DNA of 64,000 nucleotides, from assembly GCF_036346855.1 (NCBI RefSeq), contig NZ_CP107841.1, positions 3,600,001-3,664,000 on the forward strand. The letters run 5' to 3'. This document shows, piece after piece, positions 32,102 through 40,647 of this stretch (positions are counted from its first letter, which is position 1; each line of letters starts with the position of its first letter). The DNA comes from Streptomyces europaeiscabiei. GTDB lineage: Bacteria; Actinomycetota; Actinomycetes; Streptomycetales; Streptomycetaceae. The notes beneath the pieces were generated by a model. The model did not search any database. It was not told where the DNA came from and worked only from the letters and a program-made list of their open reading frames with translations. The position numbers were made by a program, and so were the translations under genes.

Positions 32102-32188
32102 ATGGTTGCTCAGGCCCGGTACTTCTCGTCGCGTCGCTACGTCGATCTGCGACGCGTCGGCACGGCCACCTGTCGCCGTCCCGGGTGA
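32102..32188 (+). CDS. Putative 28-residue leader peptide before the ROK gene
   Basis: The peptide is basic at its N-terminus and contains RRYVDLRRVGTATCRR. This matches my memory of small 'putative leader peptides' in Streptomyces with an H/YVDLxRVxxAxC core, which are found upstream of sulfur-assimilation genes. A TAGCTT -10-like element seven bases before the ATG suggests a leaderless transcript. It ends 68 bases before the ROK start codon. The single Cys near the end may be the sensing codon. The match is by form, not by a database search. Confidence 0.55.
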   Translation: MVAQARYFSSRRYVDLRRVGTATCRRPG

Positions 32189-32256
32189 GGCGGCTCCGGC
32201 ACGCACCGCCCTTTCGAGACGGCGCAGTGTCGGACCCGTTCCCGAGGATGATCGCC

Positions 32257-33534
32257 ATGCCCCACGCCGCGGCAGCACCCGCCCTTTACGCTCCCGCCTC
32301 CCCTTCCTCTCGCACCTCCCGTTCCTCTCCCACCCCTGCCTTCTCCCCCGTACCGCGTGTCGCCGACAGTGACCGGCGGCGGACCAGCGCCAGCGTGGTG
32401 CTGCGGTCCGTGCTGGAGCACGGGCCGGTGGCGCGCAGCATCATCGCCCGGGTGACCGGGCTGTCACCGGCCTCGGTGACCGACTACTGCGCCCGGTTCG
32501 CGGGGCTCGGGCTCATCCGTGAGGCCGAACCGCCCCGGCGGGCCAAGGGTGCCGGGCGCCCGCACGTACCCCTCGACCTGGACGACTCGCGGTTCGTGGT
32601 GGGCGGGGTGCATGTGGCCGTGCCGTACACGACGGTCGCGCTGCTCGATCTGCGTGGACGGGTCGTCGTGGAGCGGCGGTTGAAGCACGGCTCCACCGAC
32701 CCCGCCCCGGTCCTGGCGCGGGCCGCCGACGAACTCCGGGCCCTGCTGGACGAGGCGCCGGACTGCCGGGCCCTGGCCGTCGGCTTCGCGGCCGGCGGCT
32801 GGGTGGACCGGGAGACCGGGACCGTCGTCGAGCATCCGCTGCTGGGCTGGCGCGAGGTGCCGGTGCGGGAGATGCTCGGTGCCGGGACCGGGCTGCCGGT
32901 CCATGTGGACGGGCATGCGCGGGCCTTGGTCAACGCCGAGCAGTTGTTCGGGCGGGCGCGCGGCAGCCGGAGTGTGCTGCATCTGTTCGTCGGCAACATG
33001 GTCGACGCGGCGTTCGCGACCAACGACGAGGTGCATCACGGGCCCCGCTCGCAGGCGGGAGCGATCGCCCATCTGCCGTTGCCCGGCGGTACGGAGCCCT
33101 GCGAGTGCGGCCGGACCGGCTGCCTCCAGGCCGAGTTGAGCGAGCGGACACTGTGCCGGCGGGCGCGCGCGGCCGGGGTCATCGACGGGGTGAACCCGAT
33201 ACGGGTGCTGGACGCGGCGGCGGACGGCGACGCCGTGGCCGTGCGACTGCTGGTGGAGCGGGCACGGATGGTGGGGCGGGCGGCGGAGTTGCTGCTCGAC
33301 GTGCTGAACCCGGAGACCGTGGTCGTCACCGAGATCGGGATCATCGGCCGGGCGGACTGCCTCGCCGCGCTGCACGAGGCCGTCGGGCCGGACCGGGCGG
33401 TGGCCGTGGGGCCGACGAGCTTCCCCGACTCCGTGCTGGCCACGGCGGGCGGAGCGGTGGCTCTGGACGTGCTCTACCGGGATCCGCTGGGGGCCGTGGC
33501 GCGTCTCGACCGCGCCTGCGCCGAAGTCGGTTAA
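32257..33534 (+). CDS. ROK-family transcriptional regulator
   Basis: A 425-residue protein. After a Ser/Pro-rich start comes a winged helix (SVVLRSVLEHGPVARSIIARVTGLSPASVTDYCARFAGLGLI, about residues 45-90) and then a ROK sugar-kinase-like fold. The ROK zinc motif appears as CECGRTGCLQ, with Gln where most have Glu. The phosphate-binding DxGxT of true kinases is replaced by GGVHVAVPYTTV, so it is a regulator and not a kinase. The ATG at 32257 has GAGG nine bases upstream. It directly precedes the sulfonate transport genes and is the obvious candidate regulator. Confidence 0.9.
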   Translation: MPHAAAAPALYAPASPSSRTSRSSPTPAFSPVPRVADSDRRRTSASVVLRSVLEHGPVARSIIARVTGLSPASVTDYCARFAGLGLIREAEPPRRAKGAGRPHVPLDLDDSRFVVGGVHVAVPYTTVALLDLRGRVVVERRLKHGSTDPAPVLARAADELRALLDEAPDCRALAVGFAAGGWVDRETGTVVEHPLLGWREVPVREMLGAGTGLPVHVDGHARALVNAEQLFGRARGSRSVLHLFVGNMVDAAFATNDEVHHGPRSQAGAIAHLPLPGGTEPCECGRTGCLQAELSERTLCRRARAAGVIDGVNPIRVLDAAADGDAVAVRLLVERARMVGRAAELLLDVLNPETVVVTEIGIIGRADCLAALHEAVGPDRAVAVGPTSFPDSVLATAGGAVALDVLYRDPLGAVARLDRACAEVG

Positions 33535-33551
33535 TTCAGAAACTCCGAATG

Positions 33552-33581
33552 TTGACAGGCAATACCGAAGACCGGGAACAT
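33552..33581 (+). promoter_or_regulatory. Predicted promoter of the sulfonate operon
   Basis: A perfect TTGACA (33552-33557), an 18-base spacer and GAACAT (33576-33581). The expected start point, about seven bases further, falls on or next to the ATG of the Cys-rich leader at 33589, so the leader would be translated from a leaderless mRNA. The -10 is a poor match to consensus. Confidence 0.5.
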
Positions 33582-33588
33582 CGTATTC

Positions 33589-33624
33589 ATGCTGCTCACG
33601 AGTTGTCGCACCCTCTGTTGCTGA
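33589..33624 (+). CDS. Cys-rich 11-residue leader peptide (attenuator candidate)
   Basis: ATG at 33589 to TGA at 33622-33624 encodes MLLTSCRTLCC: three Cys in eleven residues, two of them the final codons. Cysteine codons ending a short frame ahead of sulfur-acquisition genes are the classic layout of amino-acid-sensing attenuation. A perfect 10-bp hairpin begins 12 bases after the stop. There is no good ribosome site, but a promoter seven bases ahead would make it leaderless. It is too short for statistical support on its own; context carries the call. Confidence 0.55.
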   Translation: MLLTSCRTLCC

Positions 33625-33636
33625 CACGTTGACGTA

Positions 33637-33659
33637 CCGGAGTGCCCCCGGCACTCCGG
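33637..33659 (+). terminator. Hairpin in the sulfonate-operon leader
   Basis: A perfect 10-bp stem (CCGGAGTGCC / GGCACTCCGG) with a CCC loop, 12 bases after the Cys-rich leader. It could be an attenuator. There is no T-run after it. Confidence 0.5.
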
Positions 33660-33734
33660 CCGACGCGGCACTTCTTCCTGCGTGAGTTCTCCTTCCGCAG
33701 CTTCCTTCCTTTCCGTCCGCTTCTGCGGATCCTT

Positions 33735-33784
33735 CCGTTCGTGATTCCGTTCGTGATTCCCGTGCGCGATTCCCGTGCGCGATT
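33735..33784. repeat. 12/13-bp tandem repeats in the leader of the binding-protein gene
   Basis: Two copies of CCGTTCGTGATT (33735-33758) followed by two copies of CCCGTGCGCGATT (33759-33784). They lie between the leader hairpin and the binding-protein gene and lengthen the untranslated leader to about 200 bases. Confidence 0.85.
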
Positions 33785-33834
33785 GAGTGCGGGATTTCGT
33801 GCACTTCCCACCGTTTCCCCCTGGGGGTCCTCCC

Positions 33835-34899
33835 ATGTCTTCTTCCGCCGCGCCCGGTTTCGACCGGCGACTCTTCCTCACCTCTCTCCTCGGCGTCACG
33901 GCCGCGGCGGCCGGTCTCAGCGGCTGCGCCGACAGCAGCGCGGCGACCGCCCGGACGGCCGCGGACGCGCCGCTGCCCACCAAGGTTCCCTCGGGTACGA
34001 GCCTGAAGATCGCCTCCTTCCAGAACCAGCAGCAACTGCAGTTCGAGCTCGCGAAACTCGGCGAGCTGCCTTTCAAGGTGAGCAGTTGGGCGAACATCGG
34101 CGCCGGGCCCGATGTCATCAACGCCTTCCGGGCGGGGTCGCTGGACGTCGCCAACAACGCGGGAATTCCGCCGATCCAGGCGCATTACCAGGGATACGAC
34201 GCGAAGATCGTCGCGATCAACGTCACCCGGAAACCGAACTATCTCTTCGCCACCAAGCCCGCCAGCGGCATCTCCTCGGTCGAGGATTTCCGGGGCAAGA
34301 GGCTCGCCTTCTCCCAGGGGCAGGCGCAGGGCGTCGTACTGCTGCGGGCGTTGAAGGAGGCGGGGCTCGCGTACGACGACGCGGAACTCGTCCCGCTCAC
34401 CAGCAACCAGTTCCTGACGGCCCTGCAGTCGGGCCAGGTGGACGTCGCGCCGCTCGCCAACCAGCAGGCGCCCGCCTATCTGCAGCAGTACAAGGCCAAG
34501 GGCGCCCGCACGATCCCCACCGACGTGGTGGACCTGCTCAACCTGCTGTGGGCGCCGGCCTCCGTGCTGGGCGACTCCTCGAAGGTGGCCGCCGTCGCCG
34601 CGTACATCCCGTACTGGGCGAAGGGCGCGGTCTGGCAGTACGAGAACCCGGACATCTGGAACGAGGAGTTCTACGTGAAGACCCAGAACCTGAACCTCGC
34701 GCAGGCGGAGTCGATCAGCGAACTCGCCAACAAGCCGCTCTTCCCGCCCAGTTGGGACGAGGCGATCAAGTGGGAGCAGGAGACCGCGGATCTGCTGGCG
34801 GAGGGTGGCTTCGTGAAGAAGTTCGACGTCGGCACGCTCTTCGACCGGCGGTTCGAGGGGATCGCGGCGAAGGCCGTGGCCGCGGAGTACCGGAAGTGA
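33835..34899 (+). CDS. Sulfonate/taurine-type ABC transporter binding lipoprotein
   Basis: A 354-residue protein of the SsuA/TauA/NMT1 group. The N-terminus DRRLFLTSLLGVTAAAAGLSGC combines a twin-arginine-like start with a lipobox (LSGC), so it is a lipid-anchored exported receptor, possibly Tat-exported. Inside are family motifs such as FRAGSLDVANNAGIPP, GISSVEDFRGKRLAFSQGQAQ and LQSGQVDVAPL. It delivers alkylsulfonate-like substrates to the permease. Its stop overlaps the permease GTG. The ATG at 33835 follows GGGGG. Confidence 0.88.
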   Translation: MSSSAAPGFDRRLFLTSLLGVTAAAAGLSGCADSSAATARTAADAPLPTKVPSGTSLKIASFQNQQQLQFELAKLGELPFKVSSWANIGAGPDVINAFRAGSLDVANNAGIPPIQAHYQGYDAKIVAINVTRKPNYLFATKPASGISSVEDFRGKRLAFSQGQAQGVVLLRALKEAGLAYDDAELVPLTSNQFLTALQSGQVDVAPLANQQAPAYLQQYKAKGARTIPTDVVDLLNLLWAPASVLGDSSKVAAVAAYIPYWAKGAVWQYENPDIWNEEFYVKTQNLNLAQAESISELANKPLFPPSWDEAIKWEQETADLLAEGGFVKKFDVGTLFDRRFEGIAAKAVAAEYRK

Positions 34900-35762
34900 G
34901 CGCCGTGACCACCAGTGCCGCCCGGGTCCGCACGACCGCCGTAGGCACGGTCGAGGCCGTGGAGGAGACCTCCCAGGTCCGCAGGCGCCGACGTCTCTCC
35001 CCCGGCAAGCGGCTGCCCGCCTCCCGGCTCGTCGGGCCGGTGCTGTTCCTCGCCCTCTGGGCCGTCGCCTCCGCCGCCGGGCAACTCGACCCGGCGGCGA
35101 TCCCGGCGCCCTGGACGGTGCTGGAGACGGGCGTCCGTCTGTGGACCGGGGGGACGCTGACGACGGACATCACGACCTCGTTGCAGCGGGCCGGATCCGG
35201 GTTCGTGATCGGGCTGACCGCCGGCGTCGCGCTCGCCCTGGCCTCCGGGCTCAGCCGGGTCGGCGAGGCGCTGATCGACGGGACCGTACAGCTCAACCGG
35301 GCGATCCCGACGCTGGGCCTGATCCCGCTGTTCATCCTCTGGCTGGGCATCGGCGAGACCTTCAAGATCGCGATCATCGCCATCGTCGTCTACATCCCCA
35401 TCTACCTCAACACGCATGCCGCGCTGGCCGGGATCGACAGCCGATTCGTCGAACTCGCCGAGGTGCAGGGTCTGTCGAGGCTGCAGTTCGTCCGGCAGAT
35501 CGTCATCCCCGGCGCGCTGCCCGGCTTCTTCGTGGGCCTGCGGCTCGGGGTGACCGGCTCCTGGCTGGGCCTGGTCGTGCTGGAGCAGATCAACGCCACC
35601 AACGGACTCGGCTACATGATGTTCCAGGCCCAGAACTACGGCCAGAGCGACGTCATCCTCGTCGGCCTGGTCGTCTACGGGATCTTCGGCCTGATCTCCG
35701 ACAGCGCGGTCCGTCTCATCGAACGGAGGGTGCTGTCATGGCGACGCACGCTGAGCAGCTGA
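34896..35762 (+). CDS. ABC transporter permease, SsuC/TauC type
   Basis: A 288-residue permease with a basic N-terminal tail (VRRRRRLSPGKRL) and about six helices. The EAA loop that touches the ATPase reads AEVQGLSRLQFVRQIVIPGALPG. The start is GTG at 34896, overlapping the binding-protein stop as GTGA. The 3' end overlaps the ATPase gene by 25 bases. It forms the membrane channel for sulfonate-type substrates together with its neighbours. Confidence 0.9.
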   Translation: MSAVTTSAARVRTTAVGTVEAVEETSQVRRRRRLSPGKRLPASRLVGPVLFLALWAVASAAGQLDPAAIPAPWTVLETGVRLWTGGTLTTDITTSLQRAGSGFVIGLTAGVALALASGLSRVGEALIDGTVQLNRAIPTLGLIPLFILWLGIGETFKIAIIAIVVYIPIYLNTHAALAGIDSRFVELAEVQGLSRLQFVRQIVIPGALPGFFVGLRLGVTGSWLGLVVLEQINATNGLGYMMFQAQNYGQSDVILVGLVVYGIFGLISDSAVRLIERRVLSWRRTLSS

Positions 35763-36487
35763 CGAACACCGGGCGGACGGCCACCCCTGAGCCGCGAACG
35801 GCCACGGCCACCCGGCCTGCCGTGCAACTCCGGGCACTCACCCGGTCGTTCGACGGGCGCAAGGTCCTCGACGGCATCGACCTCGACATCCCCGCCGGGC
35901 AGTTCGTGGCCCTGCTCGGGCACAGCGGCTCCGGCAAGAGCACGCTGCTACGGGCGGTCGCCGGGCTCGACCACGAGGTGGTGGGCAGCGGGCGGCTCAC
36001 CGCGCCGGCCCGGGTGTCCGTCGTCTTCCAGGACTCCCGGCTGCTGCCCTGGCGCCGGGTCCTCGACAACGTGCTGCTCGGCGCGGAGGGCAAGGAGGCC
36101 GCGGCCAGGGGCCGCGAGCGCGCCTGGCCGAACGAGCTGTCCGGCGGCGAGGCCCAGCGCGCGGCCCTCGCTCGCTCCCTGGTCCGCGATCCCGAACTGC
36201 TGCTGGCCGACGAGCCGTTCGGCGCCCTGGACGCGCTCACCCGGATCAGGATGCACACCCTGCTCAGGCAGCTGTGGGAGCACCACAAGCCCTCCGTCCT
36301 GCTCGTCACCCACGACGTCGACGAGGCGATCGTGCTCGCCGACCGCGTCCTCGTGCTCGAGCAGGGGCGCATCGGCCTCGACCTGACCATCGACCGCCCG
36401 CACCCGCGCTCGTACCGGGACCCCCTGCTGGGGGAGTACCGCGAGCGACTGCTGATCGCGCTCGGCGTGACGGAGGACCACCAGTGA
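35738..36487 (+). CDS. ABC transporter ATPase, SsuB type, with a short helical domain
   Basis: A 249-residue ATPase. Walker A GHSGSGKST, Q-loop VVFQDSRLLPWRR, signature LSGGEAQR, Walker B LLLADEP and the switch His in LLVTHDVDEA are intact. Between the Q-loop segment and the signature it has only KEAAARGRERAWPNE, about ten residues fewer than E. coli SsuB as I recall it. The missing part is the helix that normally reads ALxxVGLxxR, so a small in-frame deletion is likely; activity may still be possible. ATG at 35738 follows GGAGGG. Its stop forms GTGA with a downstream repeat frame. Confidence 0.88.
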   Translation: MATHAEQLTNTGRTATPEPRTATATRPAVQLRALTRSFDGRKVLDGIDLDIPAGQFVALLGHSGSGKSTLLRAVAGLDHEVVGSGRLTAPARVSVVFQDSRLLPWRRVLDNVLLGAEGKEAAARGRERAWPNELSGGEAQRAALARSLVRDPELLLADEPFGALDALTRIRMHTLLRQLWEHHKPSVLLVTHDVDEAIVLADRVLVLEQGRIGLDLTIDRPHPRSYRDPLLGEYRERLLIALGVTEDHQ

Positions 36488-36666
36488 CCTCCGGTGAAAC
36501 GCCGACGACCCCCGCAGGCCCACCCATCCCCTCCGGCCAACCACCGACAACTCCCGCAGGCCCACCCATCCCCTCCGGCCAACCACCGACAACTCCCGCA
36601 GGCCCACCCATCCCCTCCGGCCAACCACCGACGACCCCCACACGGCCGGCCCATGACCTCCGGTGA
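36484..36666 (+). CDS. Possible Pro-rich repeat peptide, first frame
   Basis: A GTG at 36484 overlaps the ATPase stop (GTGA) and opens a 60-codon frame made of PPIPSGQPPTTPAG repeats, ending HDLR. It has no known domain. A single-base shift near 36640 moves the same repeat peptide into the next frame, so this may be half of a frameshifted gene or simply translated repeat DNA that maintains coupling. Confidence 0.3.
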   Translation: MTSGETPTTPAGPPIPSGQPPTTPAGPPIPSGQPPTTPAGPPIPSGQPPTTPTRPAHDLR

Positions 36667-36781
36667 ACCGACCACGACTCCCCGCGGACCGTCGATCGCC
36701 TCCGGCAAGCCGCCGACGAGTCCCGCCGGGCCCCGGACGACCGTCACAGAACCGCCCATGACCCCCGAGGACCACCAGTGA
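36653..36781 (+). CDS. Possible Pro-rich repeat peptide, second frame
   Basis: An ATG at 36653, 14 bases inside the end of the first repeat frame, opens a 42-codon frame that starts MTSGEPTTTPRG and ends TPEDHQ, like the ATPase C-terminus (TEDHQ). Its TGA overlaps the GTG of the monooxygenase gene. The chain of overlapping stops and starts would carry ribosomes from the ATPase gene to the monooxygenase gene. Confidence 0.3.
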   Translation: MTSGEPTTTPRGPSIASGKPPTSPAGPRTTVTEPPMTPEDHQ

Positions 36782-38204: not shown

Positions 38205-39158
38205 ATGACCATCGACATCCAGAAGGTCACCGCCCACATCGGCGCCCGTGTCTCCGGCGTCGACATCTCCGAGCCCCTCGACGAGGAGACGGTGCCGCCC
38301 TGCGCGAGGCCCTCAACGTCCACAGGGCGCTCGTCTTCGACGACGTGAACCTCGACGACGAGACCCACCAGGCCTTCGTCCGCCACTTCGGCGACATCAC
38401 CACCGCCCACCCGACGGTGGCCGCCGTCGAGGGGGCCGCGAACGTCCTGCCCGTGGACAGCGAGCGGGGGCGCGCCAACCACTGGCACACCGACGTCACG
38501 TTCGTCCTCAACCCGCCGCAGGCCACCACCCTGCGCAGCATCACGATCCCGCCGTACGGCGGCGAGACCCTGATCGCGAACTCGGCGGCGGCCTACCGTG
38601 ACCTGCCCGAACCACTGCGGCGGCTGGCCGACGGCCTGTGGGCCGAGCACACCAACGACTACGACTACGCGGTGCCGGACGAGGAGATCGACGCGGAGCG
38701 GGCCGAGCAGCGCGCCCGGTTCACGTCGATCAAGTACCGCACGGTCCACCCGGTGGTCCGCGTCCACCCTCCCCCACTTCTCGACTTCGCTCGAAGCGGG
38801 GGGACCCCCATCCGGTGAACGCGGGCTGTTCATCGGCGGTTTCGCGCAGCGGATCGTGGGCCTGTCGCTCGGCGAGTCCCGCAAGCTCCTCGACCTGCTC
38901 CGGTCGTACGTGACCCGGCCGGAGAACGTGCTGCGCCACCGCTGGTCGGAGAACCAGCTCGTCGTCTTCGACAACCGCATCACCCAGCACTACGCCATCG
39001 ACAACTACGACGGCCTGCCGCGCCGGCTGCACCGGGTGACCGTCGCCGGTGACGTGCCGGCGGGCATCGAGGGCACGGAGAGCCACTCGGTCGAGGGGGA
39101 CGCCTCGCACTACACGTCCGTGGCCTCGCAGCCCGTGCCCGTGCCCGTGGCGGCCTGA
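38205..39158 (+). pseudogene. Disrupted TauD-type alpha-ketoglutarate dioxygenase
   Basis: Pieces of one TauD/TfdA protein lie in three frames. The start [20 protein letters not shown] is intact to about 38293, where loss of one G shifts the frame (adding a G restores [10 protein letters not shown]). The middle part holds the iron ligands HTD (HWHTDVTF) and runs to about 38768. There an inserted palindrome of about 45 bases interrupts it and brings a stop. The last part (ERGLFIGGFAQRIVGLSL to the end) contains the distal His region FDNRITQHYAIDNYDG. As it stands no full enzyme can be made. The first shift could be a base-calling error; the insertion is not. Confidence 0.85.
38768..38812. repeat. 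Palindromic mini-element inserted in tauD
   Basis: About 45 bases: CTCCCCCACTTCTCGACTTC followed by GCTCGAAGCGGGGGGACCC and CCATC. CCCCCACTT pairs with AAGCGGGGG around CTCGACTTCGCTCG. From memory, very similar GGGGGTCCCCC..CTTCGAGCGAAG..GGGGGAG sequences are scattered through Streptomyces genomes, usually between genes. Here it sits inside a reading frame. The exact ends are uncertain by a few bases. Confidence 0.7.
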
Positions 39159-39240
39159 CCCCGTCGCCGCGGAGCCGGGCGGCGGCCCCGCCGGGGCCCG
39201 TGCCGCGCGGGCACAGCCGGCGCCCGACGCGTCCGGAAAG

Positions 39241-40418: not shown

Positions 40419-40487
40419 GCAGGCCCCGCCGAGATGTCCTGCTCGTGATCGTCTTCTCAACCTTCACCGGGCAGGCAGAAAGAGGCA

Positions 40488-40520
40488 GAACCCCCGCGAG
40501 GACGTGACCCGCGGGGGTTC
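40488..40520 (+). terminator. Terminator of sodF
   Basis: An 11-bp perfect stem (GAACCCCCGCG / CGCGGGGGTTC) with an 11-base loop, followed by TCTCG. Confidence 0.75.
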
Positions 40521-40647
40521 TCGCCGTCCGGGACCGGAAAACGCCACCGGCGGGACGCGTTCCGGTCTGACGGTTTCCTGAACTTTCGCCCTATGATCCC
40601 GGTTTCCGGCCGGATTCCCGATCCGGCCGACCGGACCGGGAGGTCGC

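Follow-up and report, generated by a model that had tools for sequence, protein, structure and literature searches.

Cysteine-responsive leader peptides of mycobacteria provide the nearest precedent for the element described here (PMC1262725, PMC4633059, PMC9031893, PMC13236596). The Ms5788A-type small ORF that precedes cysA2 (Rv0815) in M. tuberculosis and Msmeg_5788 is described as leaderless, carries Cys codons near its stop and is the first frame of a sulfur-metabolism operon (PMC4633059). Cys leaders were also described for the cys/cbs operons of Mycobacterium, P. acnes and B. longum, and Rho control was suggested for the mycobacterial cys leaders (Seliverstov 2005, PMC1262725). These share with the leader discussed below the position of the Cys codons next to the stop, pyrimidine tracts and the lack of an obvious terminator, but they belong to other operons and genera, and the accessible part of that report names no Streptomyces Cys leader (PMC1262725). 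For S. lividans TK24, eight leader peptides are listed; they are leaderless, as is predicted for the present one, and include the 12- and 13-residue leuL2 and ilvL. One, before metNIQ, contains Cys; in the part available to us, the list neither includes a leader of ssu genes nor assigns any leader to cysteine (PMC8079986). The titles and abstract openings of the open-licence literature likewise name no Cys leader before Streptomyces ssu genes, which is weak evidence of absence. The 11-codon frame found here in Streptomyces europaeiscabiei is, on its sequence features, probably a leaderless leader peptide that senses cysteinyl-tRNA for an ssu operon and descends from the actinobacterial Cys leaders.

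The window, i.e., the whole stretch of 64,000 nucleotides that was analysed, lies in a 10.95-Mb genome of S. europaeiscabiei and encodes an SsuA with 99% identity to the protein of S. europaeiscabiei 96-14. The locus runs from a ROK gene through the promoter, leader and spacer to ssuA-like, ssuC-like and ssuB-like genes and a flavin monooxygenase gene (Table 1). A preliminary description of this DNA had reported a TTGACA box ahead of a short frame with two terminal Cys codons and a third further upstream, and a perfect hairpin behind it; the sequence bears out all of these, including the -10-like GAACAT that follows the box and a stem of exactly 10 bp. It had also placed the frame before a sulfonate-type ABC transporter. 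In favor of this, the aliphatic-sulfonate SsuA, SsuC and SsuB models are the best or near-best for the three transporter genes and the NtaA/DmoA-type flavin monooxygenase gene 3′ of them scores over its model cut-off, but all three transporter genes score below the curated cut-offs. The leader is thus followed by a candidate cysteine/sulfur operon for which sulfonate, because of these scores, is the predicted substrate. Other features of the region include a tandem repeat with a 42-bp unit (5.7 copies, 36488-36726) between the ssuB-like and monooxygenase genes, and a TauD-like dioxygenase gene (38205-39159) that is broken by a frame shift near 38300 and interrupted by a GC-rich palindromic element (38767-38812). 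A search of the window against Rfam at gathering thresholds gave no match at the leader; it returned only a sodF sRNA (RF02790, 86.5 bits, 40434-40523) and two tRNAs.

Table 1. Features of the ssu leader locus of S. europaeiscabiei, with positions counted from the first base of the window.
Feature	Position	Strand	Remarks
ROK-family regulator gene	32185..33534	+	NCBIfam Mlc/NagC-type matches, below cut-offs
Candidate activator site TTAATTCAGAAACTCCGAATG	33531..33551	+	abuts the -35; 11 positions plus AAT identical in 74/74 loci
Promoter	33552..33581	+	-35 TTGACA 33552-33557; -10-like GAACAT 33576-33581; 18-nt spacer
Leader frame MLLTSCRTLCC, stop TGA	33589..33624	+	Cys codons TGT (6), TGT (10), TGC (11)
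Candidate leader-internal RNA hairpin	33604..33626	+	TGTCGCA (first Cys codon and Arg) with TGC-T-GACA (last Cys codon, stop and CA)
Pyrimidine-rich 5′ spacer, possible Rho-loading region	33625..33834	+	pyrimidine fraction (Y) 0.66
10-bp hairpin CCGGAGTGCC-CCC-GGCACTCCGG	33637..33659	+	perfect stem, 3-nt loop; no U-run behind it
ssuA ribosome-binding site and start TGGGGGTCCTCCCATG	33822..33837	+	Shine-Dalgarno within a small local hairpin
ssuA-like, sulfonate-binding protein	33835..34899	+	TIGR01728 SsuA_fam 102 bits, below cut-off of 163.5
ssuC-like, permease	34896..35762	+	PRK11365 SsuC 183 bits, below cut-off
ssuB-like, ATPase	35738..36487	+	PRK11247 229 bits, below cut-off; start inferred from MATHAEQ frame

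The frame is conserved among related Streptomyces ssuA loci. A search for SsuA homologues found 86 relatives in named genomes, and the upstream regions of the best 80 of the 86 were used. We looked for TTGAC with a start codon 24-35 nt behind it that opens a frame closed by two Cys codons and a stop (CC-stop), so that the frame itself is part of the rule. This was satisfied in 74/80 ssuA loci. The other six comprise two CC-stop frames with a longer spacer, two that end in SCRTLCR, one in RTLCR and one in RTLCH. The promoter and leader arrangement is thus present in 80/80 loci, none of which failed on the frame, with CC-stop in 76 and a single terminal Cys (Cys-Arg or Cys-His) in four. The preliminary description had made its reading depend on such conservation, and its absence is excluded by these counts. 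Among the 74 loci the leaders are 8, 11, 12, 13, 16, 27, 50, 51 or 52 codons long, and the start and CC-stop stay in frame with each other; 68 are mini leaders (8-16 codons) and six are long. At the DNA level, positions 33530-33680 matched 79/295 Streptomyces genomes, including the genome itself, some of them via the operator-like element or a short piece alone. Random leaders simulated with the base composition of the spacers reached CC-stop within 16 codons in 70 of 200,000 cases. Across the whole genome, the pattern of TTGAC, gap, ATG and CC-stop has two matches, the leader and one out of frame, and the reversed control gave 1 and 1. The bare pattern is not rarer than chance, so conservation is the main evidence that the leader is real.

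The Cys codons themselves hardly vary. Counted back from the stop, which is TGA in all 74 leaders, codon -3 is TGT in 74/74 and codon -2 is TGC in 72 and TGT in two, and the earlier Cys codon of the 68 mini leaders is TGT in 66 and TGC in two. Codons -8, -5 and -4 do vary, and the changes at -4 and -5 are synonymous or conservative. TGT is the minor Cys codon in the window (10 TGT vs 75 TGC, counted over 32 of its 42 script-called genes). It may have been kept in the leader through slower decoding or through RNA structure.

Seven bases (CGTATTC) separate GAACAT from the ATG. The distance from the -35 box to the leader start is 31 nt in 68/74 loci and 30 nt in the other six, the start codon is ATG in 73 and GTG in one, and the base that precedes it is C in all 74. 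A C at -1 is usual where transcription starts at A. Because the gap is fixed and a C precedes the start codon, the leader mRNA would be leaderless, as the preliminary description had suggested from the distance between the -10 and the ATG. A simple sigma-70 consensus scan called no promoter at the leader, as GAACAT fits the TATAAT consensus poorly.

Immediately upstream of the -35 is an operator-like element. Eleven consecutive positions, TTAATTCAGAA, are identical in 74/74 loci, followed by a variable centre and by GAAT, the AAT of which is found in all 74. In its own genome, a 23-nt stretch that covers part of the element together with TTGACAGG has a single match even when three mismatches are permitted, and a looser operator pattern has one copy in each of the 20/200 family genomes that match and none with the reversed-pattern control. 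A ROK gene homologue lies upstream of ssuA in 79/80 loci. We suggest the adjacent ROK protein as a candidate regulator of the operon that may bind this element. In C. glutamicum, sulfonate genes are regulated by the ROK-type activator SsuR, and the sites described for its paralogue CysR, located 3 bp before the -35, are inverted repeats of the half-site TGAAtnnAAt with a spacing of 6-8 bp (PMC2580772). The Streptomyces arrangement is like these sites in combining a ROK regulator and sulfonate genes with an inverted repeat beside the -35, and the bases most often found ahead of the -35 in Streptomyces ssu loci are similar to aTTnnaTTCA, the complement of the half-site. The window element itself is mismatched to the half-site at the outer end (G for T and G for A), and the Streptomyces element differs from the published sites in its right half and its distance to the -35 (PMC2580772). 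The motif described for S. coelicolor RokB is a different one (PMC4856308).

The genome carries further Cys leaders. A scan with NF042933, the model of the Ms5788A family, gave 14 matches at E-values up to 10, none of them over the cut-off; control genomes match at that level too (8 of 14). By inspection seven of the 14 are leader-like (L113-L118 and L122, judged by eye to be of the RRHVDL type), and five of these seven pass the cut-off of NF042934. The leader of a rhodanese gene (L113), MKRQADLTKRRAVDLCRVAAMLCRTF followed by the stop, scores 43.6 bits against NF042933 (cut-off 45) and is among those that pass NF042934. According to Pfam, the genes behind the seven leaders encode a rhodanese, an FMN reductase, a cysteine dioxygenase, a luciferase-like protein, a PLP enzyme, a 2OG oxygenase and a GST-like protein; six of the seven are over the cut-off and the GST-like gene is below it, and the PLP enzyme gene is the second gene behind its leader. 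With related leaders ahead of these seven genes, the ssu leader probably belongs to a wider group of Cys leaders that serve sulfur genes, much like the group known from mycobacteria.

Longer forms of the ssu leader tie it to this group. A search with the operator led to two other genera, the leaders of which end in LTKCRVIDLMRVGRTLCC (L129 and L130) or LTRCRVIDLMRVGRTLCS (L131) in the first and in LTKCRVIDLMRVGRSHCC (L132) in the second; such long leaders (LTKCRVIDLMRVGRTLCC, VKRRVIDLMRVGRSSC) lie 5′ of ssuA in both genera and in another family. A search for SsuA across the order matched 101/245 genomes, and for 20 of the weaker matches we inspected the DNA ahead of the gene. In three loci of another family (L180-L182) the operator's left half recurs, with a single change in L181, together with an identical promoter gap and the leader MDRHHVNLVKRRVIDLMRVGRSSCRR plus stop or a close variant. 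Of eleven orthologues with 52-58% identity, nine (L183-L190 and L192, at 54-58%) combine the left half of the operator and the promoter with another kind of leader that also contains Cys, such as MTSRQRIQQSMPRTACRCRTAAPVREFSRPFCCRPCPGPR in L186; the one of these that was scanned matched no leader model. Four homologues at about 40% identity (L194-L197) have leaders of the type TQRRAVDLRRVASALCS plus stop without the operator, and both of those scanned pass the NF042934 cut-off. Upstream of SsuA homologues L191, L193 and L198 we found no convincing leader, and L179 has only a doubtful Cys-rich frame.

Model scans, which take sequences of at least 20 residues, used the longer ssu leaders, as the 11-codon leader is too short for the models. 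All nine that were scanned fall below the curated cut-offs of NF042933, NF042934 (cis_reg_atten) and NF042936 (Ms4527A family); six have a weak match to one of these three models and three have none, with best scores of 20.4 bits for NF042933 (L062; cut-off 45) and 15.4 bits for NF042934 (cut-off 27). Direct comparison places the ssu leaders by homology in the lineage of leaders that come near or over the NF042933 and NF042934 cut-offs. The long ssu leader of L062 aligns with the rhodanese-gene leader (RQVSLTKRRVIDLMRVGRTLC / RQADLTKRRAVDLCRVAAMLC) with a z of 12.9 and 0/2000 shuffles as good, and for 5/5 long ssu leaders 0 or 1 of 2000 shuffles score as well. The comparison is about as good with the leader of L114 and far weaker with those of L116 and L117. 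The window leader resembles the Ms5788A family in being short and in having Cys codons close to its stop, but it has 11 codons, ends in CC-stop and lacks the RRxxDLxR core. A block of that type is retained in the long ssu leaders of the other genera and family, in those of the SsuA homologues at about 40% identity and in the genome's other Cys leaders. The mini sequence LTSCRTLCC fits LTKCR-(FIDLMRIGR)-TLCC with the loss of nine residues, and in L058 the missing stretch is flanked by two GCCG repeats. On a midpoint-rooted tree of SsuA (81 rows), the long and mini labels require three changes, at least two of which are forced by starred branches. Since the long forms occur in other genera and families, the direction was probably from long to mini, with the tree only midpoint-rooted. 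Thus, the ssu mini leader looks like an actinobacterial Cys leader of the Ms5788A / cis_reg_atten type minus its RRxxDLxR core, with the start codon, one CR and the terminal CC-stop retained.

The conserved frame, its terminal Cys codons, the promoter distance and the homology to known Cys leaders support the proposal, already made in the preliminary description, that the leader senses Cys codons. We envisage the following mechanism. Transcription would start at the A of the leader ATG, give or take one base, and a 70S ribosome would load on the 5′ end of the mRNA. Scarcity of Cys-tRNA would slow or halt this ribosome at the UGU-UGC pair before the stop, and a ribosome parked about 30 nt from the 5′ end would raise expression of the ssu operon, the products of which would supply sulfite and hence cysteine. 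The least certain step is how the stall may be read out. Our first choice, held tentatively, is that the stall would stop Rho-dependent early termination in the pyrimidine-rich spacer; a switch in the RNA structure of the leader or protection of the 5′ end of the mRNA are the alternatives. The spacers have more C than G in 74/74 Streptomyces loci, with a mean Y of 0.67 and a minimum of 0.58, compared with 0.39-0.58 for 20 further intergenic 5′ regions within the window. Over the 150 nt after the leader, where the ssuA start was not located, Y is 0.60-0.68 in L194-L197 and 0.61-0.68 in L185, L186 and L188. Spacers in L180-L182 have a Y of only 0.51-0.56, and behind six other Cys leaders of the genome Y is 0.54, 0.56, 0.74 (over 38 nt only), 0.60, 0.54 and 0.64. 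The Rho step is weakened by this lack of pyrimidine richness in the other family and its variability behind other Cys leaders. We also considered the pyrimidine-rich spacer as a trait of all Cys leaders, which is unsupported, with Y at 0.51-0.74 outside the Streptomyces ssu set. The spacer also contains tandem repeats of 12-13 bp (TTCCGTGCGCGA) before ssuA, at 33733-33802.

Cys leaders of M. smegmatis reportedly act by translational attenuation, an account attributed to Canestrari in 2020. By this route the ribosome-binding site of ssuA would be hidden in mRNA structure until stalling at the Cys codons freed it; this is the mechanism class given for the M. smegmatis leaders (PMC9031893, PMC13236596). 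The ssuA Shine-Dalgarno is indeed predicted to be mostly paired (mean unpaired probability 0.23). However, masking the leader and 12 nt in silico leaves its accessibility unchanged (0.231 before and 0.222 after, in 68/74 loci, with a change of more than 0.05 upward in seven and downward in 11). Six of the 74 loci were dropped from this comparison as no Shine-Dalgarno motif was found, and in L002 the wrong motif was chosen. The pairing moreover looks local (GGAGTCCTCCC) and lies 86-344 nt from the leader; the Shine-Dalgarno is part of a short sequence able to pair with itself, GG[AG]G..CTCCC-ATG, which many relatives share. We therefore regard translational attenuation as unlikely at this locus.

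Classical transcription attenuation, in which the 10-bp hairpin would be the terminator and a stalled ribosome would favor an antiterminator, is less probable again. The hairpin is strong: folding of 33625-33670 gives -26.2 kcal/mol, with a z of -3.97 and 0/200 shuffles as stable. It is present with altered loops in L002-L006, and UGCUG and CGUUG can pair around it in L002, L003 and L006. But the strong form is confined to the scab-species clade of the window, and the search for a genus-wide hairpin after the stop was negative, with a mean z of -0.70 at +0 to +35 (73 distinct spacers) vs -0.82 at +60 to +110 (54). Neither a U-run nor a terminator-like match occurs at the hairpin, i.e., the terminator hairpin with U-run of a classical amino-acid attenuator is lacking. 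An intrinsic terminator was rejected, there being no U-run after the leader or the hairpin; the only terminator-like match in a scan of 33450-33900 is at 33822-33835, over the ssuA start. The footprint of a stalled ribosome extends about 12-15 nt downstream. The stem begins 12 nt 3′ of the stop codon and would lie beyond a ribosome on the Cys codons. Because of this position and the absence of the hairpin genus-wide, the suggestion of the preliminary description that stalling opens the hairpin is unsupported.

A second, smaller hairpin may form within the leader. It appears in the RNAalifold consensus of 67 mini-leader regions, and its pairs are kept in 61-68 of 68 rows (41 distinct); as the pairs are nearly invariant, covariation offers no proof of it. 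The base after the stop is C in 68/68 mini leaders, and C in three and T in three of the six long ones. Part of the conservation of the leader could be due to an RNA hairpin formed by the same letters. That these letters are conserved solely as a DNA or RNA element (an operator or a protein-binding hairpin) with an incidental reading frame is very improbable, since, although this 7-bp hairpin fits nearly all mini leaders, the C after the stop is constant in them and a clear operator-like element lies immediately upstream, the frame is kept across nine length classes, codons -4 and -5 change synonymously or conservatively and the homologous longer Cys leaders only partly permit the hairpin.

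The preferred reading, a leader that senses cysteinyl-tRNA, concerns a kind of device that is already known; within the searches made, what is new is its gene context and how extremely it has been shortened. The shortest leader, MSCRTLCC and a stop, has eight codons and would, to our knowledge, be among the smallest amino-acid sensors of its kind. We know of no explanation for the role of the conserved central RRxxDLxR motif. As the mini leaders have lost this motif naturally, comparison of long and mini leaders tests whether it has a role in stalling or whether starved Cys codons alone account for it. One possible interpretation, which we put forward with some reserve, is a natural deletion in which a Cys leader was cut to 8-16 codons, such that sensing would need no more than a fixed 5′ end, Cys codons adjacent to the stop and perhaps the small hairpin at the Cys codons; together with the ROK site this would give a two-layer control of sulfur metabolism, possibly via Rho. 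The leader would be a cysteine sensor of 27-36 nt, ready for reporter use. The Cys-attenuator lineage of mycobacteria would extend through Streptomyces to the uptake of organosulfur compounds, where its members have become so short that the models tried do not cover them.
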